The notes beneath the pieces were generated by a model that worked only from the letters and a program-made list of their open reading frames with translations, was not told the origin of the DNA and searched no databases. This document shows, piece by piece, positions 5,592 to 55,412 of a DNA stretch of 64,000 bases. The position numbers were made by a program, and so were the translations under genes. The stretch's first letter is position 1; the number at the start of each line of letters is the position of its first letter. The DNA is from an uncultured Roseicyclus sp. (GTDB lineage Bacteria > Pseudomonadota > Alphaproteobacteria > Rhodobacterales > Rhodobacteraceae), in the NCBI GenBank assembly GCA_947500415.1, contig CANMRT010000004.1, positions 310,001-374,000 of the forward strand, written 5' to 3'.

Positions 5592-6491
5592 TCAGGACGC
5601 GCTCAGTTTACGCATCAGGTCATCAAGTTGTTCTAAGTCTTTGTATTTAATGGACATCGTCCCACCGCCGGACCCTGCGTCGTGGCCAATTTCCACCTTC
5701 ATCGACAAAGCCGCTGAAAGATCCGCTTCCAACGCCCGTGTGTCCGCATCCTTCTCCGGTGCCGATGCCTCACGCGACGTCCCGCTCGTGGATGGCGCTT
5801 TCGCCGCTTTCTCCACCTCACGCACCGACATGCCCTCAGAAATCGCGCGCACGGCCAGCGCCAGCGGGTTCTCCGCCGTCAACAACGCCCGCGCGTGGCC
5901 CGACGTCAGTTCACCGTCCCGCACCATCGCCTGAATCTCATCGGGCAACTGAAGCAGCCGCATGACATTTGCCAAATGGCTCCGGCTCTTACCCATCGCC
6001 GTCGACAACGCCAACTGCGTGTGCCCAAACCGCTCCATCAACTGCTTGTAACCTTGCGCCTCTTCAATCGGGTTCAGGTCCGCGCGCTGAACGTTCTCAA
6101 TAATCGCAACTTGCAGCACCTCATCGTCGTCAAACTCGCGTACCAATGCGGGCACTTCGTGAAGTTGAGACATCTGCGCCGCACGCCAACGCCGCTCACC
6201 TGCAACGATCTGATACTTTCCCTGTGCCGCAGGATCGGGTCGCACAATTAGTGGCTGAATGATCCCATGCGCCCGGATCGACGCCGATAATTCGCGCAAG
6301 GCCTGCTCATCGAAGGTGCGGCGCGGCTGATCTGGGTTCGGCCCAATATCCTCAATCGGAATCGTCCGATCCGGCCGTGGCGCAGCACTTGGCTGATCCC
6401 CCGCCGCCTCTTCGCTTCGGCCCGGCTCAATATCCGCCATCAGGGCCGAAAGCCCGCGCCCCAAACCCCGTTTCTCGGTCGACCGTGCCAT
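5592..6491 (-). CDS. parB: Chromosome partitioning protein ParB
   Basis: ParB is the CTP-dependent clamp that loads at parS and spreads along DNA to drive origin segregation with ParA. The 299-residue protein has the N-terminal GLGRGLSALM ParA-activating peptide, the NPDQPRRTF entry, the CTP-binding signature GERRWRAA (residues 98-105), a helix-turn-helix region (about 145-185, GKSRSHLANVMRLL) and a C-terminal dimer domain. The start overlaps the parA stop by one base. Its likely targets, two perfect parS sites, are 1.4 and 3.3 kb away in rsmG and mnmG. Confidence 0.96.
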   Translation of the reverse strand: MARSTEKRGLGRGLSALMADIEPGRSEEAAGDQPSAAPRPDRTIPIEDIGPNPDQPRRTFDEQALRELSASIRAHGIIQPLIVRPDPAAQGKYQIVAGERRWRAAQMSQLHEVPALVREFDDDEVLQVAIIENVQRADLNPIEEAQGYKQLMERFGHTQLALSTAMGKSRSHLANVMRLLQLPDEIQAMVRDGELTSGHARALLTAENPLALAVRAISEGMSVREVEKAAKAPSTSGTSREASAPEKDADTRALEADLSAALSMKVEIGHDAGSGGGTMSIKYKDLEQLDDLMRKLSAS

Positions 6492-7279
6492 TATGCGCTC
6501 TCCTGCGTTTGCGGTTCGCGATCCAACAATTCATTGGCCAGATCGATGTAGGCCTGGCTGCCCTTCGACGCCGGATCGTAGGCAATCACCGGAAGCGCAA
6601 AAGACGGCGCCTCGCTCAACCGAACGTTTCTGGGAACAATCGTATCAAACACCAGATCGCCCAAAGTGGCCCGCGCATCCTCTTCCACCTGCTTGCTCAG
6701 GTTCATCCGCGAGTCGTGCATCGTCAAAACCACGCCCTCGATCCGTAGCGCCGGGTTCGCGGTTTCCCGCACCTCACGCACCGTCAGCATTAATTGTGAC
6801 AGGCCTTCCAAAGCAAAGAATTCTGCCTGCAAGGGCACTAACAATGAATGCGCCGCGGTCAATGCGTTCAATGTCAGCAGGCTTAGGGATGGCGGGCAAT
6901 CGATCAGAACGTAGTCGTAAGGCGCGGGAGCCGCAAAAGCCTCCTTTAACAGAAACACGCGATTATCCCGCTGCCCGAGCTCGACATCAGTCGAGCTCAA
7001 ATCCGTAGTCGCGGGCGCTATCCAAAGATTTTCAACCTCCGTCTCCATCGCCACATCCGCCAACGCCGCCCCATCCAGCAGCAAGTCGTAGGTCGTTTTC
7101 ACCCGCTCCGAAGGCTCAATCCCAAGGCCGGTGGAAGCATTACCCTGCGGATCCAGATCAACGATCAAAACCTTGTATTCCATGGACGCTAGCGTCGCCC
7201 CAAGGTTGATCGCCGTTGTCGTCTTCCCGACGCCGCCCTTCTGATTGGTGATCGCTAGAATGCGCATCTCAGGCTTCAT
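6491..7279 (-). CDS. parA: Chromosome partitioning ATPase ParA
   Basis: ParA is the Walker-type ATPase that moves ParB-parS complexes on the nucleoid. The deviant Walker A box KGGVGKTTTAINLG is near residues 14-27, followed by VDLDPQGNAS and DYVLIDCPPSL. It is 262 residues, typical for chromosomal ParA/Soj rather than larger plasmid types. It overlaps the end of rsmG by 11 bp if the first ATG is used; a second ATG four codons in (MRILAITNQ) would remove that overlap. It belongs to the mnmG-rsmG-parA-parB group. Confidence 0.96.
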   Translation of the reverse strand: MKPEMRILAITNQKGGVGKTTTAINLGATLASMEYKVLIVDLDPQGNASTGLGIEPSERVKTTYDLLLDGAALADVAMETEVENLWIAPATTDLSSTDVELGQRDNRVFLLKEAFAAPAPYDYVLIDCPPSLSLLTLNALTAAHSLLVPLQAEFFALEGLSQLMLTVREVRETANPALRIEGVVLTMHDSRMNLSKQVEEDARATLGDLVFDTIVPRNVRLSEAPSFALPVIAYDPASKGSQAYIDLANELLDREPQTQESA

Positions 7280-7904
7280 CCTTCAGTTGGCTGACGTCGA
7301 ATTTCAGAATGACCGCGTCCGGATGGGTCACACTGGGCACGGGGTCACATATCATCTGCCAGTGTGCTGGAAGGGTTTCAACCTCTTCCCGCCACGCGCC
7401 GCCTTTCGGAAAGAGCAGACGTGTGTTGGTCGTCAAATGCGGCTTTGCGTGTTCGATCAGAGCAGACAGACCACTCAACGCGCGGGCTGAGATAACATCG
7501 GCCGATTGCTGCGGAATGTCCCCAATCCGTCGCGACAAAATGTGAACGCGCACGCCCATTGCACGGGCCACCTCTCGCAAGAACCCACATTTTCGAATGT
7601 CGCTTTCAACCAGTGTAACCTCGATATTCGGTTCGTTTTCTGCACCCATTGCAACGATCACGAGTCCGGGAAAACCACCGCCCGACCCAAGATCAAGCCA
7701 GCGGGTGGCGCCTTCCGGAAGCATCGAAAACAACTGCGCGGAATCGACAAAATGCCGCTCCCACGCATAATCGAGCGACGCTGGCGCTACGAGATTAACC
7801 GTGCGCTGCCATTTTAGAAGTAAGCCGTGGTATATCTTCAACCGCTCCAGTGTTTCACGTGAAACACGCGCAGCGAGCCAATCCTTGGCGTCCTCTTCTG
7901 TCAC
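7269..7904 (-). CDS. rsmG: 16S rRNA (guanine-N7) methyltransferase RsmG
   Basis: RsmG methylates G527 of 16S rRNA. The SAM site [13 protein letters not shown] lies in the N-terminal half, after the family segment [22 protein letters not shown]. It is 211 residues, the usual size. Residues 13-19 (RVSRETL) are encoded by a perfect parS palindrome, so this stretch of the protein is probably constrained by DNA function. The first codons overlap the end of mnmG by 4 bp. Confidence 0.95.
7851..7866. other. parS site 1 (inside rsmG)
   Basis: The 16-bp palindrome TGTTTCACGTGAAACA matches the consensus chromosomal parS exactly. It lies in the rsmG coding sequence, about 1.4 kb upstream of parB. A second identical copy is 1.9 kb away. 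The site is the expected ParB loading centre for origin segregation. Confidence 0.96.
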
Positions 7905-9775
7905 GCGGATTTCCGATCCATCTGGCGCAGCTTTGTCAGGATCAGAGCCAACGCGGCTGGCGTCATCCCATCAATGCGCCCGGCTTGTCCAAGCGTCGAC
8001 GGCTGCACGCGGGACAGCTTTGAGCGCAGCTCGTTCGACAAGCCAATGACCTCGCCATATGGAAAATCGCGAGGAATCTGCTTCGCCTCATCCCGCCCAA
8101 GCGCCTCGGCATCTTTCTTCTGGCGCGCCACATAGGTTGCGTACGTCGCCTCAATCTTGAGCTGGCGCGCTGTTGCATCATCCAGATCGGCAAGCTCTGG
8201 CGCTATGCCGATCAGGTCCGACGCGTCGAGGTCGGGGAACGCAAGATAGTCCATCCCGGTCCGCCGCTTCCCGTCTGCATTGACGGTAATACCAACGGCT
8301 GTGGCCTCCTTCGGTGTTGCGGTCATCGAGTTCAGAAGGTCGCGACCCTGCTGCAAACGCTCCATCTTCTCTGTGAACACACGCTTCCGCGCTTCGCCAA
8401 TCAAACCGAGACTCAGCGCCAATGGCGTCAAACGCTCATCGGCATTGTCAGCGCGTAGGGACAGTCGGTATTCAGCGCGCGACGTGAACATCCGATAGGG
8501 CTCCGCCACGCCACGGGTGATAAGATCATCGATCATCACTCCGATGTAGCTTTCGCGGCGGCTGAAGGTGATCGGATCGCGGCCTTGGACCTGCAAAGCG
8601 GCTGAAAGACCAGCTACCAGCCCCTGCGCCGCCGCCTCTTCATATCCAGTGGTGCCGTTGATTTGCCCCGCGAGATAAAGGCCTTTCCGCGCACGCAGCT
8701 CCAGCTGAGCGGTCAAACACGTCGGATCAACGTAGTCATATTCGATAGCGTATCCGGGCTGCTGAATTTCAGCCGCCTCGAGGCCAACAATGGAATACAC
8801 GTACTCGTGCTGCACATCTTCAGGCAGCGAAGTCGAGATCCCGTTGGGGTAAACCAGATCAGAGGTTAACCCCTCAGGTTCAAGGAAAATCTGGTGCGAG
8901 TCTTTGTCGCTGAATCGGACCACTTTGTCCTCAATCGACGGGCAATAGCGCGGTCCAACGCCCTCGATCATGCCGCCATACATGGCTGAGCGGCTCAGAT
9001 TTTGCTGAATGATCTCGTGCGTTTTGGTGTTCGTATGGGTGATGCCACATGCGACCTGACGCGCCTGCACCTCAGTCGTCAGGAAGGAAAAGAAGGTCGG
9101 ATCTTCGTCCGCCTGCTGCTCTTCCAGGATATCCCAGTTGATCGACGCACTCTTGATGCGCGGTGGCGTGCCTGTTTTGAGGCGACCAAGGGGCAGATCC
9201 ATCCCCATCATGCGTTCCGCCAACCGGACCGCAGGTTTGTCACCCATGCGGCCGCCTTCGATCTTGCGATCGCCGATATGGATGATGCCGCGCAGGAAGG
9301 TGCCGGTTGTCAGCACAACAGCGCCTGCGTTGATTTCACTGCCGTCAGCAAGGACAACCCCGCAGATACGCTCACCATGTTCGACGAGGTCCGCAACTTC
9401 ACCTTCAATCAGGGTGAGGCCTGCCGAAGCCGCAACATGGGAACGGATAGCCTCGGCGTAGAGCGCGCGGTCGGATTGGGTTCTGGGGCCTTGCACTGCG
9501 GCGCCTTTGCGGCGGTTGAGCAGGCGGTACTGGATACCGGATGCGTCAGCCGCGCGGCCCATGATTCCGCCGAGGGCATCAATCTCGCGCACAAGATGGC
9601 CTTTTCCCAGGCCGCCGATAGCCGGGTTGCAGGACATGACGCCGAGATCCGCGGCGCGCAGCGTTACCAATGCTGTGTGCGCACCAGCCCGATGGGCAGC
9701 ATCCGCCGCCTCTACGCCAGCGTGTCCGCCGCCAACCACAACAACATCGAAGTCCGGATGTTTCACGTGAAACAC
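7901..9775 (-). CDS. mnmG: tRNA uridine-5-carboxymethylaminomethyl modification enzyme MnmG (GidA)
   Basis: MnmG is the FAD-dependent partner of MnmE in making cmnm5U34 in tRNA. The dinucleotide-binding motif [19 protein letters not shown] is at residues about 12-30, [11 protein letters not shown] and the [16 protein letters not shown] motif are present, and the length of 624 fits the family. The first six residues, MFHVKH, are encoded by a perfect parS site that includes the start region. It lies 2 bp after mnmE, consistent with one operon for the complex. Confidence 0.96.
9759..9774. other. parS site 2 (at the mnmG start)
   Basis: A second perfect TGTTTCACGTGAAACA lies over the first codons of mnmG, where it is translated as FHVKH. 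It is identical to site 1. Paired parS sites here mark the ParB-bound segregation centre about 2.6-5 kb from the candidate origin. Confidence 0.96.
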
Positions 9776-11067: not shown

Positions 11068-12339
11068 TTAGGTGTTCATTGAGTCGAAGAACTCAGAATT
11101 GGACTTCGTCTGTTTGAGCTTTGAGATCAGGAACTCGATGGCATCGGTCGTGCCCATCGGGTTCAAGATGCGGCGAAGAACGAAGGTCTTGGCCAGGTCG
11201 CTTTTGTCGACCAGCAGATCCTCTTTCCTTGTGCCGGACTTAAGGATGTCCATCGCGGGGTAAACGCGCTTGTCGGCGATCTTGCGATCCAGAACGATTT
11301 CGCTGTTACCCGTGCCTTTGAATTCTTCGAAGATCACCTCGTCCATCCGACTGCCGGTGTCGATCAGCGCGGTGGCGATGATCGTGAGCGAGCCGCCTTC
11401 CTCGATATTCCGCGCAGCACCAAAGAAACGCTTGGGGCGTTGCAGGGCGTTCGCATCCACACCACCGGTCAGAACCTTGCCTGACGACGGAACAACGGTG
11501 TTGAACGCACGACCCAGACGGGTGATCGAGTCGAGCAGGATTACAACATCGCGCTTGTGTTCAACCAGACGCTTCGCCTTTTCGATGACCATCTCGGACA
11601 CAGCCACGTGGCGCGTCGCGGGTTCGTCAAAGGTAGAGGACACAACCTCCCCCTTCACCGAGCGCTGCATGTCGGTGACTTCTTCGGGGCGTTCGTCGAT
11701 CAGAAGAACGATCAGGTAGCACTCGGGATGATTGGTCTCGATCGAATGCGCGATGTTCTGCATCAGAACCGTCTTACCGGTGCGCGGCGGCGCGGTGATC
11801 AACGCACGCTGGCCTTTGCCGATGGGCGCGACGAGGTCAATGATACGAGCAGAACGGTCTTTGATGGTGGGATCTTCGATCTCCATCTTCAGACGCTCAT
11901 CAGGGTATAGTGGCGTCAGGTTGTCGAAGGCGACCTTATGACGGGCCTTCTCAGGTGCCTCGAAATTGATAAGCGTGCAGGTGACCAGGCAGAAATACCG
12001 CTCACTCTCCTTGGGTGCGGTGATGACACCTTCGACGGTGTCTCCGGTGCGCAGGGAATGCAGGCGGATCATCTCGGGCGAGACATAGATGTCATCGGGA
12101 CCGGGAAGGTAGTTGGCCTCAGGGCTGCGTAGGAAACCGAAGCCGTCTTGCAGAACCTCAAGCACACCGTCACCGGAGATTTCCCAGCCTTCCTCCGCCC
12201 GCTCGCGCAGGATCTCGAACATCATGTCGCCTTTGCGCATGGTCGAGGCGTTCTCGATCTCAAGCTCTTCCGCCATGGCCAAAAGGTCTTTGGGCGATTT
12301 GGCTTTCAGATCAGCAAGGCTGAGGGATTCGGTTGTCAT
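11068..12339 (-). CDS. rho: Transcription termination factor Rho
   Basis: Rho is the hexameric RNA helicase that ends factor-dependent transcription. The 423-residue protein has the N-terminal helical bundle, the primary RNA site ([22 protein letters not shown] region split by residues 80-105), the P-loop APPRTGKT, the Walker [15 protein letters not shown] and the secondary RNA-binding loop. It is the gene nearest the candidate origin on this side and is transcribed away from it, leading the rho-mnmE-mnmG-rsmG-parA-parB unit. Confidence 0.97.
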
Positions 12340-12363
12340 GGGAATTCTTCCATAGATCGACTG

Positions 12364-12379
12364 CCTGACATTGGTCAGG
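12364..12379 (-). other. Hairpin in the rho leader
   Basis: CCTGAC-ATTG-GTCAGG forms a perfect 6-bp stem with a 4-nt loop 25 bp upstream of the rho start. A second short hairpin (CTCCG-GA-CGGAG) is at 12411-12422. Both would be in the 5' leader of rho mRNA, where autoregulation is known in other bacteria. The role here is not shown. Confidence 0.35.
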
Positions 12380-12487
12380 GCGGCGAAGGTCTGTCATAGT
12401 GAGGCTGCGTCTCCGGACGGAGTGCAAGAATGGGAGGTAAGGACTTCCCTTTTCTATGTCAACGCGCAGGTGTTTGCGGCGCCCACC

Positions 12488-12531
12488 AATAAATAAGAAA
12501 AAGAAAAGAAGAAGATTGTTGTTTGTTGTTG
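12488..12531. other. AT-rich tract, candidate DNA unwinding element
   Basis: A run of A/G-rich then T/G-rich sequence (starting AATAAATAAG) stands out in a high-GC genome and lies just beside the best DnaA-box-like site. This is the usual layout of an origin unwinding element. The call rests on composition and position only. Confidence 0.45.
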
Positions 12532-12568
12532 TGCCGTGGATTTCCGAGAAAACTCAGAATTGAGGGAG

Positions 12569-12577
12569 TTATCCACG
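12569..12577 (+). other. DnaA-box-like site
   Basis: TTATCCACG differs from the consensus TTATCCACA only at the last base. It lies in the non-coding stretch between rho and maf, about 38 bp from the AT-rich tract. Confidence 0.6.
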
Positions 12578-12684
12578 GGGTTATTGGAGTTTGATTCATT
12601 GGTTGAAGATAGCCTTTGAGTATGTTGAAAGTGATTTTAGGTATTTAGTACAGTAACTTACGAGATATGCGCGCCGGAAAAACC

Positions 12685-12693
12685 TGTGGACAA
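12685..12693 (-). other. DnaA-box-like site
   Basis: Read on the minus strand this is TTGTCCACA, one mismatch from TTATCCACA. A weaker third candidate, ATTTCCACA (two mismatches), is at 12854-12862 just before maf. Confidence 0.5.
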
Positions 12694-12876
12694 GGCATTC
12701 ATTGCAGATGCAAACATCTGTCGTCTAAGTTTCCCAGAGAAGATTCCACACCCGGGCAAAACGCCTTGATCGTTCTTCGAAAAACCGGCGAACTTGGGCG
12801 CAAGACGCGGAACTTGCTGAACGGTTCACATTCCGCCCATAGTGATCCGCGAGATTTCCACAGAGTTCCCCAGAAG

Positions 12877-13476
12877 ATGGTTAGCCTTATCCTTGCCTCC
12901 TCCTCCCCCATCCGGTGGGAGATGCTGGAAAACGCCGGCCTGACGGTCGAATCGCGGCCCGCGCGTGTGGACGAAGCGGCGATCCGCGAATCGTTGCAGG
13001 CCGAAGGGGCTGGGCCACGCGACGTGGCGGATACATTGGCCGAATTCAAAGCGCGTAAGGTGGCGGAAGGTGTGGGTCCTGAGACGTTGGTGCTGGGCTG
13101 CGATCAGTTGTTGGCGTTGAAGGGTGAAATCTTCGGGAAGGCGCGTGATGTGGCGGAAGCAGGCGAGCATTTGAAGCGCTTGCAAGGGAAGACGCATCAT
13201 CTGATGTCCGCCGCTGTGCTTTATGAAGACAACAAGCCGGTCTGGCGGCACGTCGGCGTCGTTCGCATGACGATGCATTCGCTGTCTGACGCGCAGATCG
13301 AAGATTATCTGGCGCAGGCCTGGCCAGAAGTCTCCTATTGCGTCGGGGCCTATCAAGCCGAGAAGTTTGGTGCGCGGCTTTTTTCGCGGATTGAAGGCGA
13401 TTGGTTCTCGGTCCTTGGGTTGCCGTTGCTTGAGATCCTTTCCCATCTGCGATTGCGCGATATGTTGGGCACATGA
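12877..13476 (+). CDS. maf: Maf-family nucleotide pyrophosphatase
   Basis: Maf proteins hydrolyse non-canonical nucleoside triphosphates. The 199-residue protein begins with LILASSSPIRWEMLENAGL, the family substrate loop. The active-site block reads LGCDQLLAL, closer to the SDQ form of the YceF (7-methyl-GTP) subgroup than to the ADT form of dTTP/UTP enzymes, so a YceF-like specificity is inferred. I use the ATG at 12877; the frame stays open upstream to 12667 but that part would run through the candidate origin and has no family similarity I recognise. It overlaps aroE by 4 bp. Confidence 0.92.
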   Translation: MVSLILASSSPIRWEMLENAGLTVESRPARVDEAAIRESLQAEGAGPRDVADTLAEFKARKVAEGVGPETLVLGCDQLLALKGEIFGKARDVAEAGEHLKRLQGKTHHLMSAAVLYEDNKPVWRHVGVVRMTMHSLSDAQIEDYLAQAWPEVSYCVGAYQAEKFGARLFSRIEGDWFSVLGLPLLEILSHLRLRDMLGT

Positions 13477-15579: not shown

Positions 15580-16095
15580 TCAGGCGGTGCCAGCGGGCGG
15601 TTGTTGCGCCTGACGGGCCTGAAGCTGCTGACGATAAAGCGCCACGAAATCCATCTGATCGAGGTTCAGCGGCGGATAGCCACCGTCACGCGTTACGTCC
15701 GAGATGATGCGGCGCACAAACGGGAACAGCATCCGGGGGCATTCGATCATCAGAAATGGATGCAACTGCTGCTCGGCAATATTCTCGATGGAGAAGACGC
15801 CGCCATACTCAAGCTCAATCAGGAAAACCGACTTCGGCTCATCTTCCTTGGTTTTCGATTCGACCTTCAGTTTCATGATGACGTCGTATTGGTTTTCGGT
15901 CGTGCGTTTGCGGGCGTCGAGGGCCACCTGAACCTGAATGTCCGGCTGACCCTGCGCTACGACAGCGTTTTGCACGGCGGCATTTTCAAACGACAGGTCG
16001 CGGATGAACTGGCCAAGGATCTGCATCTTGGGAAGTTGGGCGGCCGGCTGGGCCGCGCCGTTTTCGGTATCGCCATTGGCCGAAGCGTCGGACAT
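15580..16095 (-). CDS. secB: Protein-export chaperone SecB
   Basis: SecB is the tetrameric cytoplasmic chaperone that holds preproteins unfolded for SecA. The 171-residue protein has PKMQILGQFIRDLSFENAA at residues about 24-42, IELEYGGVFSIEN and the C-terminal block LFPFVRRIISDVTRDGGYPPLNLDQMDFVALY, all diagnostic. The N-terminal 20 and C-terminal 15 residues are low-complexity, as in other alphaproteobacteria. It converges on dnaQ and is followed upstream by fxsA on the same strand. Confidence 0.96.
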   Translation of the reverse strand: MSDASANGDTENGAAQPAAQLPKMQILGQFIRDLSFENAAVQNAVVAQGQPDIQVQVALDARKRTTENQYDVIMKLKVESKTKEDEPKSVFLIELEYGGVFSIENIAEQQLHPFLMIECPRMLFPFVRRIISDVTRDGGYPPLNLDQMDFVALYRQQLQARQAQQPPAGTA

Positions 16096-35644: not shown

Positions 35645-36793
35645 ATGTTTCCCAAGTGGTTTGATAAATGGAACGATGACAATCCCACCAACATCTTCGG
35701 CCCCGCCATCGCGGTTGGGGCTGTCGGTGGGGCTGTCTTCGTCGCGGCCCTGATCGTGGCCTTCGGGCAACCCTACGCCACGGCAGGTATGCAAACCGGC
35801 CCACGCGGTACGGGGATGCATGTGCAGGAATTCGAAAGCGACCTTGCCGCTGGCGACCCCACGGTCATCGACTTCTACACCGATGAGCCTTTCGTGCCGG
35901 AAGAGGGTGAAGAACTCGCCGGTGACATCTACGAAAACGTCCAGGTTCTGGGCGATTTGACCGATGCCAACTTCAACCGGCTCATGGGGGCGATCACACA
36001 ATGGGTCGCGCCTGAAGAAGGCTGCACCTACTGCCACGCCAACGCGGCGGATGGCGAATATGCGGATGATGACCTCTACACCAAGGTTGTAGCCCGCAAC
36101 ATGTTGCTGATGACCCGCAACATCAACGTGAACTGGGATGCCCATGTGAACGCCAACTACGAAGTCGGCGTCACCTGCTACACCTGTCACCGCGGTCAGC
36201 CGGTCCCCAACAACGTCTGGTTCCGCATCAGCCCGGTGAACGAAAACGCCGAAGGGTGGAGCGCCAATCAAAACCGCGCCACCATGGCATCAAACTTCAC
36301 CTCGCTGCCGTCCGATTATCTGGAGCACTACCTGCTTGAAGCGGAAGAGGGCGGCTACAACATGATCGCCGTCCACGACCTCGACAGCCGTGTGCAACAG
36401 ATGCCCGGTGATCCGCTGATCCAGCAGACTGAGCGGACATATGGCTTTATGAACTACATCGCGAACTCGCTCGGTGTGAACTGTGTCTTCTGCCACAACT
36501 CCCGCGCGTTCTACGATGGCGGTCAGAATACGCCGCAATGGGGCACCGCATCGCTTGGCATCATCATGGTGCAAGAGATGATCGCGGAATACCTCCTCCC
36601 ACTTGAGGAAGTGTATCCCGAAAACCGCCTCGGCCCGGTCTATGGCGACGCGCCTCTGGCCGCTTGCCGCACCTGTCACCAGGGCTATCAGCAACCGCTA
36701 AACGGTCTGAACGTGATCGCGAATTGGCCCGAGCTAAACGTCATCGACGGCCCGCCGGACTACTCCGCATGGGAAGAGGCGGACGCCAACTGA
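35645..36793 (+). CDS. pufC: Reaction-centre-bound tetraheme cytochrome PufC
   Basis: PufC re-reduces the special pair on the periplasmic side. Four CxxCH heme sites are present: CTYCH (residue 127), CYTCH (178), CVFCH and CRTCH. The 382-residue protein has an N-terminal hydrophobic segment (about 18-40) with no lipobox cysteine, so it is probably held by an uncleaved helix rather than a lipid. Its presence in place of pufX puts this puf operon in the pufBALMC class. A strong terminator-like hairpin follows. Confidence 0.95.
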   Translation: MFPKWFDKWNDDNPTNIFGPAIAVGAVGGAVFVAALIVAFGQPYATAGMQTGPRGTGMHVQEFESDLAAGDPTVIDFYTDEPFVPEEGEELAGDIYENVQVLGDLTDANFNRLMGAITQWVAPEEGCTYCHANAADGEYADDDLYTKVVARNMLLMTRNINVNWDAHVNANYEVGVTCYTCHRGQPVPNNVWFRISPVNENAEGWSANQNRATMASNFTSLPSDYLEHYLLEAEEGGYNMIAVHDLDSRVQQMPGDPLIQQTERTYGFMNYIANSLGVNCVFCHNSRAFYDGGQNTPQWGTASLGIIMVQEMIAEYLLPLEEVYPENRLGPVYGDAPLAACRTCHQGYQQPLNGLNVIANWPELNVIDGPPDYSAWEEADAN

Positions 36794-36799
36794 TACGAG

Positions 36800-36834
36800 A
36801 CGGCGGCGGGGTCCATCCTCGCCGCCGTTGTTCT
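36800..36834 (+). terminator. Terminator-like hairpin after pufC
   Basis: ACGGCGGCG pairs with CGCCGCCGT as a 9-bp perfect stem; inner G-T, G-C and G-C pairs extend it to 12 bp around a TCCAT loop. TTGTTCT follows. It lies 7 bp after the pufC stop and about 70 bp before dxs, so it probably ends or attenuates puf transcription. Confidence 0.75.
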
Positions 36835-36900
36835 ACCTGATGGACGTCAGACCCCATCAGTTTCGGGCCTAAACAGCCCAACAGAGACGGAGAATGACCC

Positions 36901-38817
36901 ATGGATCGCCCCGAAACCCCTGTGCTCGACCGCGTCGTCTATCCTTCCGATCTGCGACGCCTCACGGATGCTGAACTTGCCCAATGCGCCGATGAACTCC
37001 GCGCTGAAGTGATTTCCGCGGTGTCAGAAACTGGTGGCCATCTCGGCTCATCCCTCGGCGTTGTCGAACTCTCCGTTGCCATCCACTCCGTTTTCAACAC
37101 GCCCTACGACAAACTCGTCTGGGACGTGGGCCATCAATGCTATCCCCACAAGATCCTGACCGGCCGCCGCGACCGCATCCGCACGCTTCGCCAGAAGGGC
37201 GGCCTTTCCGGTTTCACCAAACGCGCCGAGTCCGAATACGACCCCTTTGGTGCAGCGCATTCATCGACCAGCATCTCCGCCGCCCTCGGTTTCGCCATGG
37301 CCTCCGATCTGGGCGAAGCAACCGGGGATGCCATCGCGGTCATCGGCGACGGCTCCATCTCTGCCGGCATGGCTTACGAGGCGCTGAACAACGCCGGTGA
37401 CCTCGGCAAACGCCTCTTCGTAATCCTCAACGACAACGAGATGTCCATCGCGCCCCCCGTCGGCGCCATGTCGCGCTACCTGACCGACCTGCAAAGCCCG
37501 CTCGCCACCCTCAAAGACATTGCCGATGGCGTCGCAGCGCATCTGCCCGAACCGATCCGCCAGGGTGCCGAACGCGCCCGCGAACTCGTCACTGGGCATC
37601 AGCCCTCCGCAACGCTGTTTGAACACCTCGGATTCACCTATGTTGGCCCCATCGACGGCCATAACATGGATGAACTCCTCACCACGCTGCGCGCCGCCAA
37701 AGCCCGCGCCGACGGCCCCGTCCTGATCCACGCCGTTACCGTGAAAGGCAAAGGCTACAGTCCCGCCGAGCTCTCCGATGATTGCTACCACGGCGTCGCC
37801 AAATTCGACGTCGCCACCGGTCAGCAAAAGAAAAGCGCGCCCAACGCCCCCAGCTATACCGGCGTCTTTGGAAAGACCCTGTTGCGCATGGCAGAAACGG
37901 ATAATCGCATCGTCGGCGTCACCGCCGCCATGCCCGGCGGCACTGGCATTGCCACGATGCAAAAGGCCATGCCGCGCCGCGTCTTCGATGTGGGTATTGC
38001 CGAACAGCACGCCGTCACCTTCAGCGCGGGCATGGCCGCCGGTGGCCTCAAACCCTTCTGCGCGATCTACTCCAGCTTCCTACAACGCGGCTACGATCAG
38101 ATCGTCCATGACGTCGCCCTGCAAAACCTACCGGTCCGCTTCATGATCGATCGCGCGGGCCTTGTCGGCGCTGATGGCCCGACCCATGCCGGTGCATTTG
38201 ACATCGGCTACCTCGCGGCGCTTCCCAACATGACCGTGATGGCATGTGCCGATGAGGCCGAGCTTGTGCACATGCTCGCCACCGCCGCCGCGCACGATGA
38301 CGGCCCCATCGCCCTGCGCTACCCGCGCGGCGAAGGCACCGGCGTTGAAATGCCGGAAACCGGAGACGTCCTCCCCATCGGCAAAGGCCGCGTCATCCAG
38401 GAAGGCAGCGACATCGCACTCCTCTCCCTCGGCGCCCATCTCGAAGAAGCGAAAGACGCCGCCCGCGCGTTGGAGGCTCGCGGCCTAACCGTAACCATCG
38501 CCGACGCCCGCTTCGCCAAGCCGCTCGATACCGATCTCGTCGACGGCCTCATGGCAAACCACAACGCGCTCATTACCGTCGAGCAGGGCGCAACCCTCGG
38601 CTTCGGCGGCTTCGTTCTCCACCATCTCGCCGCAACCGGCCAACTCGACGGCCGCTGCGCCGTCCGCACAATGCATCTGCCCGACCGTTTCATCGATCAG
38701 GCAAGCCCCGCCGACATGTACGCCGACGCACGCCTGACCGCCGACGACATCGCCACTCAGGCGCTCGATGCACTGGGCGTCACAGTCGGACAATTCGAAG
38801 AGAAATCTCGCGCCTGA
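36901..38817 (+). CDS. dxs: 1-deoxy-D-xylulose-5-phosphate synthase
   Basis: DXS makes DXP from pyruvate and glyceraldehyde 3-phosphate, the entry step of the MEP isoprenoid pathway. The 638-residue protein has the thiamine-diphosphate region ([31 protein letters not shown]) and the transketolase central and C-terminal domains ([17 protein letters not shown]). A copy inside the photosynthesis cluster would raise precursor supply for carotenoids and the phytyl tail. It is separated from pufC by a strong hairpin, so it may be expressed by readthrough or its own promoter. Confidence 0.95.
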
Positions 38818-38832
38818 ACCGGGTCAAAACCC

Positions 38833-38844
38833 GTTCACCTGAAC
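38833..38844. repeat. GTTCA-N2-TGAAC palindrome, first of three
   Basis: GTTCACCTGAAC is a perfect palindrome 15 bp after the dxs stop. Related palindromes at 38911-38926 and 38931-38946 share the GTTCA-N2-TGAAC core (the last with one mismatch). A half site, CTCAGATGAACGC, lies at 38881-38893. Function unknown. Confidence 0.5.
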
Positions 38845-38904
38845 AGATCTTGCATCACCTGACCGCGCGGCAGAAACTCTGCTCAGATGAACGCACTTCT
38901 CGCG

Positions 38905-38926
38905 AAAAAAGCGTTCACTTGAACGC
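38905..38926 (-). terminator. Intrinsic terminator of idi
   Basis: On the minus strand GCGTTC-AAGT-GAACGC (38926-38911) is followed directly by TTTTTT (38910-38905). It starts 9 bp after the idi stop. Stem plus U-tract fit an intrinsic terminator for the bchG-bchP-idi transcript. Confidence 0.75.
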
Positions 38927-38930
38927 ATAT

Positions 38931-38946
38931 GCGTTCAGCTGGACGC
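38931..38946. repeat. Third GTTCA-type palindrome, overlapping the end of idi
   Basis: GCGTTCAGCTGGACGC is an imperfect palindrome (one mismatch) next to the terminator stem. It overlaps the last codons of idi. It may be a decayed copy of the same element or an operator-like repeat. Confidence 0.4.
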
Positions 38947-39462
38947 AGTTTCAAAGATCACGCCCGCATGTTCGCGCAGGTAAATCTGCAGCCAAGGCGT
39001 GAATGTATCCGGCGCGCGCAGAACTTCTTCGGCAAGCCCGTCTAGCGGCGTCCAGATCGTGTCCATCACCTCATCGGGGTTCATCACAGGCTCCACACCG
39101 ACAGGCATTTCGCCCACGAAAATGTCGACAACCTCGTGCTCGATCAACCCGCCACCGACATCCGCGCGGTATTCAACCGTATCACGGAAATCGAGGGAAA
39201 TTCCTTTGATTCCAAGCTCTTCGTCCAACCGCCGCGTAGCACAGGTCAGCGCGTCTTCTTCCCAATAGGGATGTGTGCAGCAGGCGTTCGCCCAAAGCCC
39301 GGGCGTATGGTATTTGTGCAATGCCCGCCGTTGCAGCAGCACCTTGCCATCGCGCAGGATGAACACCGAAATCGCTTTGTGCCGCAGCCCGCGCTGATGC
39401 GCCTCCAGCTTCTCAACCGGCTGAAGCGTGCCGTCCACCCATGTCGGAATATGAATAGTCAT
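38935..39462 (-). CDS. idi: Isopentenyl-diphosphate delta-isomerase (type 1)
   Basis: Idi interconverts IPP and DMAPP. The type 1 Nudix fold is shown by NACCTHPYWEE (catalytic cysteine) and RRLDEELGIKG (Nudix box). At 175 residues it is a normal bacterial size. Its start overlaps the end of bchP by 4 bp, making it the last gene of the bchG-transporter-bchP-idi unit. With dxs facing it across 117 bp, the cluster carries two isoprenoid supply genes. Confidence 0.95.
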   Translation of the reverse strand: MTIHIPTWVDGTLQPVEKLEAHQRGLRHKAISVFILRDGKVLLQRRALHKYHTPGLWANACCTHPYWEEDALTCATRRLDEELGIKGISLDFRDTVEYRADVGGGLIEHEVVDIFVGEMPVGVEPVMNPDEVMDTIWTPLDGLAEEVLRAPDTFTPWLQIYLREHAGVIFETASS

Positions 39463-40640
39463 GCCCGTGTTGCGCTCACAATTCCGGTCAAATGTGCCAG
39501 ATTTTTGATACCAATCTTGATATGCGCCAAGGGCCGCGCTTTGACCAGCTTCTTGTTCATATAGGCCTCAAACGTCAGGCGCTGCACGTCGATGTCATGG
39601 CAAAGCGTCACAAAGCGCTCGCGCCGTTCGTCCGATTTGTAATAGGCGTTCTGCATCGCGCCGAGCACTTTGAAGACCTGCTTATGTTCCCGCATGAACA
39701 GCTTCCGCGCCAGTTGCAGATCCTTCACCCGACCGCTCTGCAAACAAGCCGCAGCCGCAGTCGCGGCCACGCGCCCACCGACCATCGCATAGTAAATGCC
39801 TTCACCAGACGACGGCGCAACAACGCCCGCAGCATCCCCCGCCAGCACTACGTCCTTACCATTATCCCAACGATCCAAAGGCTTTAGCGGAATAGGCGCG
39901 CCCTCTTTGCGGATCGTTTTGCAATCATCAAGGCCCGCCGAGACACGCAAAGCAGCTGTCGCCTGCTTCAGATCCACATCCTTGACCAGCGAGCCCATTC
40001 CGACACTCGCCGAATTGCCATGCGGGAAAACCCAGCCGTAGAAGTCGGGCGAAATCGCCCCGTCATAGATCACGTCACAGCGGTCCGGATGGTACTCGCC
40101 CCTTGGTCCAGGGCTTTCGATAATCTCATGGTAAGCAATGACATAAGGGATCTTGTCGCCACCTTCGACCTCGGCGCGCGCCACGTTAGACCGCGCTCCA
40201 TCGGCCCCGATCACAATCTTGCCGGTCAGGACCTTCTCGTCCCCGCTCTCCTTGTCGCGGTAATGCACATGGGTGCCGCTTTCATCGCGGGTGATCTTGG
40301 TAAACGTACCCGTCCGCCGATCAGCACCGGCCAGCGCCGCACGGTCGCGCAGGAACTCGTCAAAATGCTCACGATCGACCATACCGACGAAGCCGTTTTC
40401 AATCGGAATATCGACTTTGCGCTTGGTGGGAGAGATCATGCGCGCTGTGGTGATTTTTGCCACAAGCTGTTCATCTGGAATGAAAAAATCCTGGATCAGG
40501 CGCGGCGGGATCGCTCCACCACAGGGCTTGATCCGCCCCGCCCGGTCAATCATCGCAACCGTGTGGCCCGAGCGTGCCAGATCTTCGGCTGCGGTGGCGC
40601 CCGATGGCCCGCCGCCCACGACAATGGCGTCATAGATCAT
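39459..40640 (-). CDS. bchP: Geranylgeranyl reductase BchP
   Basis: BchP reduces the geranylgeranyl tail of bacteriochlorophyll to phytyl in three steps. The N-terminal FAD motif is VVGGGPSGATAAEDLARSG, followed by GRIKPCGGAIPPRLI, and the Rossmann GADGARSNVAR and GDAAGVVAPSSGEGIYYAM blocks. I use the ATG at 40640 (MIYDAIVVGGG, 393 residues), 2 bp after the transporter stop; upstream in-frame starts lie within that gene. Its 3' end overlaps idi. Confidence 0.95.
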   Translation of the reverse strand: MIYDAIVVGGGPSGATAAEDLARSGHTVAMIDRAGRIKPCGGAIPPRLIQDFFIPDEQLVAKITTARMISPTKRKVDIPIENGFVGMVDREHFDEFLRDRAALAGADRRTGTFTKITRDESGTHVHYRDKESGDEKVLTGKIVIGADGARSNVARAEVEGGDKIPYVIAYHEIIESPGPRGEYHPDRCDVIYDGAISPDFYGWVFPHGNSASVGMGSLVKDVDLKQATAALRVSAGLDDCKTIRKEGAPIPLKPLDRWDNGKDVVLAGDAAGVVAPSSGEGIYYAMVGGRVAATAAAACLQSGRVKDLQLARKLFMREHKQVFKVLGAMQNAYYKSDERRERFVTLCHDIDVQRLTFEAYMNKKLVKARPLAHIKIGIKNLAHLTGIVSATRA

Positions 40641-40642
40641 GG

Positions 40643-41893
40643 TTACTCTCCCGGTTGTAGCTGAGGCCCTGATGGCCATGCATGAAGTAGCCGCCCGGCG
40701 ACAAGCGCGGCGGCAAGAAACAGGATCGCCTCAAGTCCGAAGACTGTGGCGTAGGCGGCTTCGGTTGGCATGGTCAGGCGCGCAACATCAAGGATGCCAG
40801 TCGCGATCAAACCCGCGAGGCCGGCGGCCACGGCCTGCGCCGCACCGAAAACGCCCATACGCGTGCCAGCAGCGCCCGCGCGTTCCGACGCCAGCCGCAT
40901 CATCGACCCGATGGCGCCAACGACGAACAACCCGTTGCCGAGGCCGAGGACGACCGTGAAGGCCAGCAAATGGAAACCCATCCCAAGCCCAATCAGGCCC
41001 ACGGCGGAGATGATGCAGCCGACCATCGCCCAGATGCGGAGCGACCCAATACGGAACTGACTGAGAGCGCCTGCGGCAAGCATTCCAAGCAGGGCCGCAC
41101 CGTCCTTGCCGCCGCTCAGCTTCGTGGAATCCTCTGGCGGCAACCCATGGACATGGCCGGCAAAGGGCTCCAGCACCAACTCAGACAGGTAGAAGGCAAG
41201 GATCGAGAGGAAAACAAAACCGGTAAAGGCCCGCGCCGCCGGATCAGCCCAAGTGGCGCGCAGGGCAGGGCCAAGCTCAGGCTCATCGGGTGCGGGCACA
41301 GTGCCGAGGCGACGCTCAACACCGAAGGTGCCGAGCCACGCTAGGCCCAGACAGATCAGTGCAACAACCGGCACAACAGCCATCAATCGATCACCGGAGT
41401 AAGGCTCCAAAGCGATACCAGTCCCGATGGAGGCGATGATCGCTCCGAAGATCAGCGTGAGCCACGCGAAGGTGGCGGCGGCAGGTTTACGGTCATCCGG
41501 CGCGGCGGTCGCCAGCAGCGCAAGAAACGATGTGCCGGCCGCGCCAATGCCAAGACCGATCAGCGCATAGGCGATAATCCAGACGATCAGGGCAGTGGTC
41601 CCAGCCAGATGTGCGATGCCATAGGCCGTCATCACCAGACCAACGCCCACGGCTGCGATACCGCAAAGAATGAACGGTGTGCGTCCACCCTTCGCGTCGG
41701 ATCGATGCCCCCAATAAGGTCGCGTCAGTTGCACGCCATAATGCAGAGCCACAAGCAGACCGGGCAGGAGGGCGGGCCAGGACAGCTCCACCGTCATCAA
41801 TCGGTTGAACAGGTTCACAGGCAAAGCGGCGAGGCCACCAATGGCCATGTTGCACAAGCAAAGCCGCGCGATGCCGCCCCAGCCCAAGGTCAT
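40643..41893 (-). CDS. PucC-family MFS protein (bch2/ORF428-type)
   Basis: A 416-residue MFS-fold membrane protein with about 12 hydrophobic segments. It begins MTLGWGGIARLCLCNMAIGGL and has the BCH2 signature VALHYGVQLTRPYWGHRSDAKGGRTPFILCG (split, residues about 45-75). Proteins of this type between bchG and bchP are thought to move or place bacteriochlorophyll during antenna assembly; this is distinct from lhaA at 54 kb. I chose the ATG at 41893, which overlaps the bchG stop by 4 bp. Confidence 0.9.
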   Translation of the reverse strand: MTLGWGGIARLCLCNMAIGGLAALPVNLFNRLMTVELSWPALLPGLLVALHYGVQLTRPYWGHRSDAKGGRTPFILCGIAAVGVGLVMTAYGIAHLAGTTALIVWIIAYALIGLGIGAAGTSFLALLATAAPDDRKPAAATFAWLTLIFGAIIASIGTGIALEPYSGDRLMAVVPVVALICLGLAWLGTFGVERRLGTVPAPDEPELGPALRATWADPAARAFTGFVFLSILAFYLSELVLEPFAGHVHGLPPEDSTKLSGGKDGAALLGMLAAGALSQFRIGSLRIWAMVGCIISAVGLIGLGMGFHLLAFTVVLGLGNGLFVVGAIGSMMRLASERAGAAGTRMGVFGAAQAVAAGLAGLIATGILDVARLTMPTEAAYATVFGLEAILFLAAALVAGRLLHAWPSGPQLQPGE

Positions 41894-42801
41894 GTCAGCC
41901 CCCGGATGGCAACAGCGGTGATCATCATGCCAAGCACGTAAAGCGTAACGCCCGTGCCATTGTACCAAGGCGCTTTGCCTTTCGGGTCACGCAACAGCAC
42001 TCGCATCGCGGCGAGTTGCAGGACAACCGAAACCGCAATCGCCAGCGCATACCATTCTACGCCCCAATAGATCAGCAAACCGATAACAATCAGCTGCGGA
42101 ACCGCCATCACAACGCAGGCCAGCTTCGCAGCGCGCTCTGGCCCCATCGTCACGGGAAGGGAGTTCACGCCCATCTGGCGATCTCCCTCCAGCGCTTTGA
42201 AATCGTTGAGTGTCATGATGCCATGGGCGCCGATGCCATAAAGCAGGGCCACGATGACGACGGGCCAAGACGGCGCACCAGCGGCCAGAACGGCAGCGCC
42301 GGTGAACCAAGGCAGGCTCTCGTAGGACAAGCCAACCAAGCCAGGCCCCCACCAGCCCGACCGCTTCATGCGGATCGGTTCGGCGGAATAGGCCCATGCA
42401 GCGGCGATGGCGACAAGTGTCGCGTCAAACCCCCAAGGGCCAAGCGCCAAACCAAGGAACGCAGCGAAGACCGACATGATGAGAGCGATCCACAGGCCCC
42501 AACGGCCCGGAATGCGGCCCGACGGGATAGGGCGGTTCGGCTCGTTGATCGCGTCGACATGGCGGTCGCACCAATCGTTGGCCGCCTGGCTCATCCCGCA
42601 AACAACCGGACCTGCCAAAACTACACCCAACCCCAGTATCAACCAATGCCCGGACGGGGCCACGCCAGCGGAGACTGCGCCGCACAAATACGCCCACATG
42701 GGCGGGAACCATGTGATGGGTTTGAGAAGCGTCAGAACGGCCCGTGGTTCGGGCAACGTGCGGGGCGCTTCCGATGTGCTGAGGTCGGTCTTTACACTCA
42801 T
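41890..42801 (-). CDS. bchG: Bacteriochlorophyll synthase BchG
   Basis: BchG attaches geranylgeranyl diphosphate to bacteriochlorophyllide a. The UbiA-type active site NDWCDRHVDAINEPNRPIPSG is in the first cytoplasmic loop (near residue 80) with the second aspartate motif around LNDFKALEGDRQMG. About eight membrane helices are visible; length is 303. The ATG at 42801 has a PpsR box ending 2 bp upstream, so either the operator contains the ribosome site or translation starts differently. It leads bchG-transporter-bchP-idi. Confidence 0.94.
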   Translation of the reverse strand: MSVKTDLSTSEAPRTLPEPRAVLTLLKPITWFPPMWAYLCGAVSAGVAPSGHWLILGLGVVLAGPVVCGMSQAANDWCDRHVDAINEPNRPIPSGRIPGRWGLWIALIMSVFAAFLGLALGPWGFDATLVAIAAAWAYSAEPIRMKRSGWWGPGLVGLSYESLPWFTGAAVLAAGAPSWPVVIVALLYGIGAHGIMTLNDFKALEGDRQMGVNSLPVTMGPERAAKLACVVMAVPQLIVIGLLIYWGVEWYALAIAVSVVLQLAAMRVLLRDPKGKAPWYNGTGVTLYVLGMMITAVAIRGLT

Positions 42802-42803
42802 AG

Positions 42804-42821
42804 TGTCAGCTTAAGCTGACA
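42804..42821. promoter_or_regulatory. PpsR/CrtJ box at the bchG start
   Basis: TGTCAGCTTAAGCTGACA is an 18-bp perfect palindrome that fits TGT-N12-ACA. It lies 2 bp upstream of the bchG ATG and 30 bp from the end of ppsR. A weaker TGT-N12-ACG is at 42839-42856. Confidence 0.85.
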
Positions 42822-42851
42822 CCTTGCGAGTCGGCAAGTGTAAAGGCAGGT

Positions 42852-44306
42852 TTACGCCTTGTCGGGGGACGGCTTGTCGTTCTTCGCCAGCAGCCCGTAT
42901 TTGCGCAGCTTCACGTAAAGCGATTGCCGCGACAGGCCCAACATCTCAGCCGCTGCGACACGGTTGTTGTCGGTCAGCTCAACCGCCGTTTCGATGCACA
43001 TCTTTTCGACCACATCGGTGGTGGCGGAAACGATGTCTTTCAACGGGGCAGATCCAACCAGATCCATGACATTTCGCATGGCATCGTCGGACATTGGGGC
43101 CGGGCCGGGCAGGGCGCCAATAGGCTCCCGCACCACTTCCATCCGGCTGGTGTCCCGAATGATGAAGGCAAACCCAGCGGTCCCACCGGCGGTCAGATGC
43201 GTCGCCGACATCTCAACCGAAAGTTGCGAGCCAAATGCCCCTTCAAGACGCGTGGAATAGAGACGCATCTTCTTGTTGCGGGCCGCATTGTCGATCAGAA
43301 CCTTCAGGTCGACCGAGCCACGCACCAGGAAGTCGCCAAGGGATTTGCCGCGAACATCAGCAAGCTGACCCGCATCGCAAAGTCCAAGAAAGGCGTCATT
43401 TGCGGACCGGATCGTGCCATGGTTGTCCGTCAGCACAACCGCATCAGCACCATCGCGATAAAGCGATGACAGATCACGGCTCAACTCAGCCGCGACAGTC
43501 TCAGAGTCGCCAGCCGTCTCGATCCGACACAGCAGCGTCTTGTCGCCGGCCGCACGGAAGACCATCGGATGCAGGACAACTTCCGTCTCGGACCGTCGAG
43601 TCTGAACCGAAATCGCGCCAGCCGTTTCATCACCGGCGGCCATAACCAGACCTTCGATGAATTCGCCCCGACGCTTACCGTCGAATTCCTGCGTGAACGC
43701 CGAGCCGCTGAGCGTTTCTGGATCGGCCCCAAGGACCTGTGCTGCGGAAGAGTTCAGATCTACGATCCGACCAGTGCCAACGTCTACCAACACTAGCGCG
43801 TCGCGGGCGGCTTCCATGATGACGCGGTAGCGCGTCTCGTAATCGCGGTGGGTTTCGTAATCCTTTTCAAGCGCCAGTTGCGCTTTCACAAGGCGATGCT
43901 GAAGCTCAGCAATCGGACGCAGGTCGCGGCCAAGCATCAGGATGATGTTTTCGCGCCCCGTTTTGTGGAGCGTGTAGCGGATCGGGAATTCCCAATTCGC
44001 GTTGTCGAAATGGTTGACCTCGATCGCGTCTACGTTGGCCTTGTTGCCATCGCGATAGGCCTTCAGCTGTGTTTCCAGCTTGGACAAACTGTCCTCGGCC
44101 ATGAACTCGCGAATATCGCGGTCTTTCCAATGGTCTAGCCGCCCCAACGTCGGGTTGAGCGGGTTGGTAATTACCGAATGAACCTTGCCCTCTGTATCAA
44201 GCACAATCGCAAGATCAGCCGCCGTGGTGACGATCTCGTTAAACTGCTCGGGCCCTATTGGGGGCGTCGAGGGTTGATCCCAAAAATCTGATCCGCGCGT
44301 GTTCAT
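42852..44306 (-). CDS. ppsR: Transcriptional repressor PpsR/CrtJ
   Basis: PpsR is the redox- and light-controlled repressor of photosynthesis genes in purple bacteria. The 484-residue protein has an N-terminal region, three PAS-type domains (about 25-130, 155-265, 280-385) separated by a coiled-coil linker, and a Fis-type helix-turn-helix (about 440-472, NNRVAAAEMLGLSRQSLYVKLRKYG). Cysteines are at 260, 310 and 437. C260 and C437 are placed like Cys251 and Cys424 of Rhodobacter sphaeroides PpsR. Its presumed boxes flank crtE, bchC, bchG and bchF. ppaA is next, 39 bp upstream. Confidence 0.95.
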   Translation of the reverse strand: MNTRGSDFWDQPSTPPIGPEQFNEIVTTAADLAIVLDTEGKVHSVITNPLNPTLGRLDHWKDRDIREFMAEDSLSKLETQLKAYRDGNKANVDAIEVNHFDNANWEFPIRYTLHKTGRENIILMLGRDLRPIAELQHRLVKAQLALEKDYETHRDYETRYRVIMEAARDALVLVDVGTGRIVDLNSSAAQVLGADPETLSGSAFTQEFDGKRRGEFIEGLVMAAGDETAGAISVQTRRSETEVVLHPMVFRAAGDKTLLCRIETAGDSETVAAELSRDLSSLYRDGADAVVLTDNHGTIRSANDAFLGLCDAGQLADVRGKSLGDFLVRGSVDLKVLIDNAARNKKMRLYSTRLEGAFGSQLSVEMSATHLTAGGTAGFAFIIRDTSRMEVVREPIGALPGPAPMSDDAMRNVMDLVGSAPLKDIVSATTDVVEKMCIETAVELTDNNRVAAAEMLGLSRQSLYVKLRKYGLLAKNDKPSPDKA

Positions 44307-44345
44307 AAGAACCTACTTTCCGTCACAGATCGTTCCTCATCAATC

Positions 44346-45170
44346 TTAGTAGTTTGCCATCGTTTCTTGCGAGAGGTCTGCTCTCACGATATTCAACCCA
44401 CACTTATCTAACGCGTCCCTTGCCGACGAAACGACATGATCCACGCCCGTTGCTTTCTTCAAATTCGTGTCAGTGCCCACAAATGAGCCACCCAACACGA
44501 CGGGCACAAATCGCGTCGAAGTCTTACGAATTATGTCCACCAATTCTCTTGTCGATGCAAGGGTTCTACGCCCTCCAATCGTCAGTCCCGCCATCACATA
44601 TCGTTGTTGTTTCAAACGCAAAGCGACCTGGCGGGGGTGTTCGTCCACGGCAATGTCCACGGCGAACCCCAAGCGGCGGAATTGATCGGCAACCACAAAG
44701 GTTCCCAACGTGTGATCTTCCGGCTTGGGAATGATTAACAGGATGCGCGGCGCAGTATGGTGATGCGCATTTACGCCCCCTGTCGCACGTGCAGCCAACG
44801 AAACGTCCCGCGCCACAAGCGCACGAACAGTTTCTTGAAGGCGCGCGCTTCCAATGCTGACCTCGGCAAAACTAAGCGTGTCGTCGGCCCATCCCTGGCC
44901 GTAAATTCGCGCCACCTCGGGGATGACATGATCGATGATCTCGGCGCCCGTGACCCCATCCGCGCGCAAAGCTTGGATGGCGGCATGGCGTTCTTCATCC
45001 TCATCGGCCAGGAACGCTTCACACAATTGATCCAATCGCTTCCGAAGACGGTCGGGGCGCGGCTCAGTCGTGTTTGCCAGAATCCGGATCGCTTCACGGG
45101 CAAGATCGCGCACATCGACACCCGCCAGACCGGCGGGTGGGGTCGGTGTTGATCTGCGATCGTCGGCCAT
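44346..45170 (-). CDS. ppaA: Cobalamin-binding regulator PpaA/AerR
   Basis: PpaA (AerR) is a B12-binding partner that modulates PpsR/CrtJ. The 274-residue protein has an N-terminal helical part and a C-terminal cobalamin domain. The base-off motif DxHxxG reads E151-D-H153-TLG156, an acidic substitution at the first position, followed by SARDAL and the GGRRTLAS region. It lies 39 bp from ppsR on the same strand and divergent from bchF, with two PpsR boxes between. That layout is the common ppaA-ppsR / bchF arrangement. Confidence 0.9.
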   Translation of the reverse strand: MADDRRSTPTPPAGLAGVDVRDLAREAIRILANTTEPRPDRLRKRLDQLCEAFLADEDEERHAAIQALRADGVTGAEIIDHVIPEVARIYGQGWADDTLSFAEVSIGSARLQETVRALVARDVSLAARATGGVNAHHHTAPRILLIIPKPEDHTLGTFVVADQFRRLGFAVDIAVDEHPRQVALRLKQQRYVMAGLTIGGRRTLASTRELVDIIRKTSTRFVPVVLGGSFVGTDTNLKKATGVDHVVSSARDALDKCGLNIVRADLSQETMANY

Positions 45171-45272
45171 CGTGATGCCAGCCTTTGCTCACGAAGCACG
45201 GTTCCCCGTGCAGGATGTGCTCTTACGGGAGCCAGCCGTCGTTGCAAGAGTGTCGCTGAGTCGACCCGCAAA

Positions 45273-45290
45273 TGTCAAAGGAAATTGACA
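45273..45290. promoter_or_regulatory. PpsR/CrtJ box nearest ppaA
   Basis: TGTCAAAGGAAATTGACA fits TGT-N12-ACA. It lies about 103 bp upstream of the ppaA start and 143 bp from the second box near bchF. Confidence 0.8.
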
Positions 45291-45415
45291 GTGCAACGAA
45301 TTTGGAACCCTGATTGCGCCTGACTCGGATCATTTGCAAGCAAAAAAGTAATAAAACTTGGGGTATCTGCATCAGGTTTACAGCGCACTGACAGGTGTTC
45401 AACGGGGTCCAAAAG

Positions 45416-45433
45416 TGTAAGTTTAGATTGACA
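45416..45433. promoter_or_regulatory. PpsR/CrtJ box of the bchF promoter
   Basis: TGTAAGTTTAGATTGACA fits TGT-N12-ACA. Its right end is TTGACA (45428-45433), a perfect -35 element. Confidence 0.88.
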
Positions 45434-45457
45434 CTCTCCAGTTTACAGCCCTACCTT
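45428..45457 (+). promoter_or_regulatory. Sigma-70-type promoter of bchF
   Basis: TTGACA (45428-45433) and TACCTT (45452-45457) are 18 bp apart, 30 bp before the bchF ATG. The -35 lies inside the PpsR box, so repressor binding would block polymerase directly. Confidence 0.5.
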
Positions 45458-45487
45458 TTGAGCAGGGCCTGGAGGAATCGAATTCAC

Positions 45488-53282
<7,795 letters not shown>

Positions 53283-55399: not shown

Positions 55400-55412
55400 A
55401 AGGACCCACGTC

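Follow-up and report, generated by a model that had tools for sequence, protein, structure and literature searches.

Where does chromosome replication begin in this uncultured marine Roseicyclus? In the window, the whole stretch of 64,000 nucleotides analysed here, a sequence-only reading had proposed the gap between rho and maf as the origin. This proposal was examined from the gap itself, from the corresponding gaps of relatives, and from the surrounding genes and the rest of the genome.

The rho-maf gap and its DnaA boxes

The gap, its boundary genes and the features discussed below are as follows.

11068 to 12339, minus strand: rho, the left boundary gene, with its start at 12339 (Pfam Rho_N, Rho_RNA_bind)
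12340 to 12876, no strand: gap between rho and maf, 537 bp, gene-free; candidate oriC together with the rho and maf leaders
12405 to 12462, minus strand: likely promoter and leader of rho, with TTGACA at 12457 to 12462 and conserved CTCCGTCCGGAG
12484 to 12543, minus strand: AAATCCACG followed by a ACAACAAC/CTTCTTCTT tract (family and genus alignments, stability), with a conserved block at 12515 to 12543
12569 to 12577, plus strand: DnaA box TTATCCACG, one mismatch; box-like 9-mer in 14 of 18 aligned rows
12619 to 12668, no strand: least stable 50 bp (nearest-neighbour stability), candidate DNA-unwinding element, flanked by the 12569 and 12685 boxes
12685 to 12693, minus strand: DnaA box TTGTCCACA, one mismatch; box-like 9-mer in 14 of 18 aligned rows
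12745 to 12768, minus strand: conserved block CAAGGCGTTTTGCCCGGGTGTGGA (18-row alignment)
12854 to 12862, plus strand: weak DnaA box ATTTCCACA, two mismatches; box-like 9-mer in 13 of 18 aligned rows
12877 to 13476, plus strand: maf, the right boundary gene, with its start at 12877 (Pfam Maf)

The G+C content of the gap was 47.7%, and 11 of 3,707 sampled 537-bp windows of the same genome were equally low. An Rfam search of the gap gave no match. When the gap was used as the query in a DNA similarity search of 295 genomes of the family (its own included), it matched itself only. Thus, synteny was used instead to find relatives, and a single scan with the Maf protein yielded 28 loci, the nearest of which came from uncultured Roseicyclus and Rhodobacterales HKCCE4037. 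The gap measured 534 to 563 bp in the ten nearest loci (L062-L071) and in twelve other genomes of the genus, two sets that partly overlap. An 18-row alignment of the gap was built from the window, the ten Maf-scan loci and seven further genus loci; five of the twelve genus loci (L092, L093, L095, L098, and L100) were omitted as duplicates, and the more distant locus L089 was excluded from both this alignment and that of the family.

The two main DnaA boxes of the sequence-only reading and its weak one were all recovered exactly where it had placed them, and none of the three is a perfect TTATCCACA. Of 2,000 dinucleotide-shuffled versions of the gap, 0.75% contained at least two boxes with one mismatch or none. 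Among 755,503 sampled bases of the same genome (about 19% of it, with 6 kb counted twice), such pairs were found in 14 of 4,099 overlapping 537-bp windows, which represent five distinct clusters including this one; L034, one of the four other clusters in the sampled 19%, looks coding by eye. The DnaA boxes alone are unusual, but they are not unique and would not prove an origin.

Their conservation was assessed by looking, at every position of the gap, for a 9-mer with no more than two mismatches to the box within 8 columns. At least 9 of the 18 rows had such a box-like 9-mer at the three boxes and nowhere else; the median over positions was 1 row. The column identity of the three boxes lay between the 92nd and 94th percentiles among all 9-mers of the gap. 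Judged from the alignment, we take the conserved box positions across relatives to be a stronger fact than the number of boxes.

A GANTC site is expected once per 256 positions, or about twice in 537 bp. The gap contains two, at 12593 and 12742, and the third site counted earlier is absent from it. GANTC was rejected as an origin signal because two sites correspond to the chance level.

The conserved blocks of the 18-row alignment were located at 12515 to 12543, 12745 to 12768, 12856 to 12874, and 12405 to 12429. Many rows of the group have a CCAAAGGGTTTTGCCCGGGGA-like sequence in the block at 12745 to 12768, and other Rhodobacterales have a conserved TGTGGA at about the same place. The TTGAC of the likely rho promoter was conserved in the alignment by eye and was absent from the promoter-scan output.

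Candidate unwinding tracts

An AT-rich tract had been claimed for the gap, and the low G+C content together with the instability of 12619 to 12668 bears this out. Only 1 of 27,252 sampled 50-bp windows of the same genome was equally unstable. The second stability minimum of the gap lies at 12484 to 12533, in the block on the rho side of the boxes.

By eye, the position of this block corresponds to that of the box-CCTAC-CATCATCTTTT element in other Rhodobacterales. On the minus strand of the 17 other Rhodobacterales, immediately upstream of hemJ, a box is followed by CCTAC (in a few, CCAAC or CACTAC) and then, in the consensus, by CATCATCTTTT and an AT tract. When searched by regular expression, a box followed by a CCTAC-type motif was present in all 17 and tandem boxes were present in 12. 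The corresponding module of the window consists of AAATCCACG, a box with three mismatches, followed by GCACAACAACAAACAACAATCTTCTTCTT, and a box with at most two mismatches was found there in 1 of the 18 rows. The tandem-box pattern likewise occurred in a single row of the group (L064), where the pair maps near the 12685 box rather than to the module. A mild oddity of this group is the erosion of the tandem DnaA boxes next to the unwinding tract.

The basal unwinding system (BUS) is described, in the available part of the source, as a DnaA box, a spacer and DnaA-trios (PMC8287927). Here, the pattern (a box with at most two mismatches, a spacer of 0 to 16 bp and at least three NAN trios; first step as coded here) found nothing in the gap of the window. 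It matched 13 of the 18 group rows (the window counted, as a miss), all 17 outside gaps and 104 of 1,260 windows of the own genome. Loss of the module is a lead and not a proof, since the rule is permissive, the outside gaps have roughly double the length, and several top matches in them fall away from the conserved element. It is possible, although we consider it unlikely, that the classical module next to hemJ (two tandem DnaA boxes beside DnaA-trios) decayed after the loss of hemJ and that unwinding moved by about 100 bp to the tract at 12619 to 12668, with the frame otherwise fixed.

Gene order, parS sites and GC skew

The partitioning genes and parS sites lie to the left of the gap.

5592 to 6491, minus strand: parB (Pfam ParB_N, HTH_ParB, ParB_C)
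6491 to 7279, minus strand: parA (Pfam AAA_31/CbiA)
7851 to 7866, no strand: parS, exact TGTTTCACGTGAAACA, within rsmG, close to its start
9759 to 9774, no strand: parS, exact TGTTTCACGTGAAACA, at the start of mnmG

When the whole genome was searched for parS with at most one mismatch, only the sites at 7851 and 9759 were found, 2.6 to 4.5 kb from the gap and beside parAB; parAB and both sites lie within 6.8 kb of it. Exact parS was present in all eight relatives searched, with two sites in seven and one site in the other, all inside the fetched rho-maf loci.

The earlier gene names rho, mnmE, mnmG, rsmG, parA, parB, maf, aroE, coaE, and DnaQ-type exonuclease were confirmed by Pfam, and 15580 to 16095 was taken from its sequence to be secB. 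The genes had been described as running away from the gap on both sides. This is correct for rho to parB leftwards and for maf to dnaQ rightwards, but secB lies on the minus strand and points towards the gap.

The distance between rho and maf was at most 1.1 kb in 27 of the 28 loci. In seventeen other Rhodobacterales (L072-L088), the gap measured 953 to 1,096 bp, and the extra length was hemJ (by eye), adjoining rho. The 28th locus, L089 from a Rhodospirillales MAG, contains hemE and COG1806 between the two genes, and its order is rho, dcd-like, hemJ, hemH, hemE, gap, COG1806 (PPSR), maf, aroE, coaE, dnaQ, with names that we presume from the sequences. The simplest reading of these orders would be a stepwise stripping of the interval, in which hemE, hemH and COG1806 went first, followed by hemJ in this group. 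Through this gene order, the gap corresponds to the hemE/COG1806 interval in which the Caulobacter origin lies, and its position is thereby explained. In the own genome, hemE is located on another contig (C1:435150) beside hemC, and COG1806 (PF03618) was not found in a search in which the Caulobacter control was positive. The sole UPF0093/HemJ match of this genome also lies on another contig (G000:C3:480135-480542). Relocation of hemJ is unsupported, as the UPF0093 proteins found elsewhere in four relatives were 22 to 26% identical to an origin-linked HemJ; this comparison covered those four relatives, and the own-genome copy and the second copies in some relatives fall outside it. The origin-linked hemJ copy may have been lost in this genome.

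The GC skew of the own genome was sampled in 54 stretches and the window, over several contigs; the sample excluded the final 440 kb of C2 and 166 kb of C3. The sampled skew switched sign many times and was negative to the left of the locus. Because the skew is scrambled and the genome is split into several contigs, no minimum can be placed in it. The sign switches occurred on C1, C2, and C4, and the six stretches of C3 were all negative, which suggests rearrangements. To the right of the gap (18000 to 64000 of the window and C4:374001-398000), the skew was mostly negative, opposite to expectation.

This right flank includes a photosynthesis gene cluster at 25662 to 63928 of the window, which begins about 13 kb from the origin candidate. 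Pfam matches of 10 proteins, with gene names that are our assumption, indicate a polyprenyl synthetase, bch nitrogenase-like reductase subunits, dxs, magnesium chelatase BchH, and PucC, as well as a rubrerythrin-type AcsF-like protein and a VWA/AAA-lid protein like BchD. Positions 36000 to 55900 of the window are collinear in G304, the closest relative by Maf. At the sampled places, the window contig was collinear with G304 from C4:2,898 to C4:404,001, with the exception of two matches of 72 to 77% to another part of G304; a further 19.9 kb was collinear. A simple recent inversion of the right flank was rejected at the tested places because of this collinearity.

In relatives, the best antipodal split of the sampled skew was determined, using 40 stretches for G304 and 20 each for G299, G310, and G311. 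With raw skew, the best split lay 0.1% (G304), 0.5% (G299), 2.4% (G310), and 3.1% (G311) of the chromosome from the locus, with permutation P values at the locus of 0.002 to 0.004. With strand-corrected fourfold sites, the distances were 0.1%, 5.8%, 2.4%, and 3.1%, respectively, with P values of 0.002 to 0.048. A fifth relative, G303, had its best split at a distance of 7.9% with raw and 25% with corrected skew, and the test at the locus was not significant (P values of 0.084 and 0.178, respectively). The five genomes are complete or nearly so. Because they are related to one another, their tests cannot be treated as independent. In the GC-skew check suggested alongside the origin proposal, the best raw split fell within about 3% of the locus in four of the five relatives, but G303 disagreed and the own skew was too scrambled to decide.

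A skew minimum next to dnaA or hemE had been named as the result that would speak against the gap. In the own genome, boxes with at most one mismatch numbered 0 in the 3.5 kb around dnaA and 1 in the 4.0 kb around hemE. By the skew of the relatives, the locus was preferred over hemE in four of five, with a tie in G299 (one of two hemE-type matches was tried), and over dnaA in three of five, again with a tie in G299, but G303 favoured dnaA. In all five, dnaA lies 91 to 190 kb from the locus, and of the stretches between the two, 9 of 16 (raw) or 10 of 16 (corrected) had the sign expected for a rho-maf origin. The fine discrimination between the locus and dnaA by skew is weak.

Probable origin function, rival readings and known origins

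The position, the conserved boxes, the unstable tract, the parS pair and, in four of five relatives, the skew all point the same way, and we conclude that the rho-maf gap is very probably the chromosomal replication origin (oriC). The origin proposal of the sequence-only reading is supported by several independent lines, namely the conserved boxes, the unstable tract between two of them, the sole parS pair nearby and the skew of four of five relatives, and also by the gene order. The gap would be an ordinary origin in the expected place, but lacking the flanking genes usual among related bacteria.

The gap could instead serve only to control rho and maf jointly, with DnaA regulating both genes through the box-like sites and replication starting at another nearby place such as dnaA. 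The conserved stretch resembling a rho promoter and leader fits this explanation, and dnaA is so near in the five relatives that skew barely separates the two places, with G303 on the side of dnaA and G299 tied. It is nevertheless very improbable: no box with at most one mismatch was present in the 3.5 kb around the own dnaA, the parS pair is located at rho-maf, skew favours rho-maf in three of the five relatives, and the three box positions have been kept despite the absence of hemJ, the neighbour of the gap in other Rhodobacterales. Still harder to credit is an ancestral origin that has since moved in this organism and left the gap as a decaying relic. The scrambled skew of the own sample, the erosion of the tandem boxes (1 of 18 rows vs 12 of 17 outside) and the missing BUS pattern would agree with such decay. 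Against it, the box positions are still conserved within the group, the parS pair is intact, and G304, which is collinear with the window contig where sampled, has its skew split at the locus.

For the rho-maf gap as oriC, we infer DnaA binding, melting and firing as follows. DnaA would bind the three conserved boxes. Melting would follow in the AT-rich DNA that separates the 12569 and 12685 boxes, in the tract at 12484 to 12533, or in both. The helicase would then be loaded, and two forks would depart, one towards rho and one towards maf. ParB on the two parS sites would segregate the new origins. A probable origin position is hereby supplied where the skew of the genome itself fails to reveal one. 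In addition, the relatives form a series in which the neighbours of the origin were lost stepwise while the origin stayed in place, and this series could show which parts of an origin are truly needed.

No description of this origin was contained in the available portions of the literature on the Roseicyclus replication origin and on Rhodobacterales oriC/DnaA box. The Caulobacter crescentus origin, Cori, was mapped experimentally between hemE and COG1806, according to the available text (PMC1914354). The gap shares with it DnaA boxes and an AT-rich tract, and the neighbourhood is of a similar type, as in L089 hemE, the gap and COG1806 stand between rho and maf. Unlike Cori, the gap is flanked without hemE, hemH or COG1806, and the CtrA site TTAA-N7-TTAA expected of the Cori type was not found in the gap, nor was any TTAA. 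In the 17 other Rhodobacterales loci, hemJ (by eye) stands between rho and the gap, whereas the gap of the window is without it. Compared with the BUS as outlined in the accessible part of PMC8287927, the gap has a conserved box-like site followed by CAAC and a CTTCTT tract in BUS orientation, but the box of the window has three mismatches and the coded pattern finds nothing in the gap. For Rhodobacteraceae, origins of 101 strains were predicted by Ori-Finder, with closeness to parAB among the criteria, as stated in the available part of that study (PMC6699656). The rho-maf gap combines low G+C content, DnaA boxes and parAB nearby, and these belong to the criteria of that study (PMC6699656).
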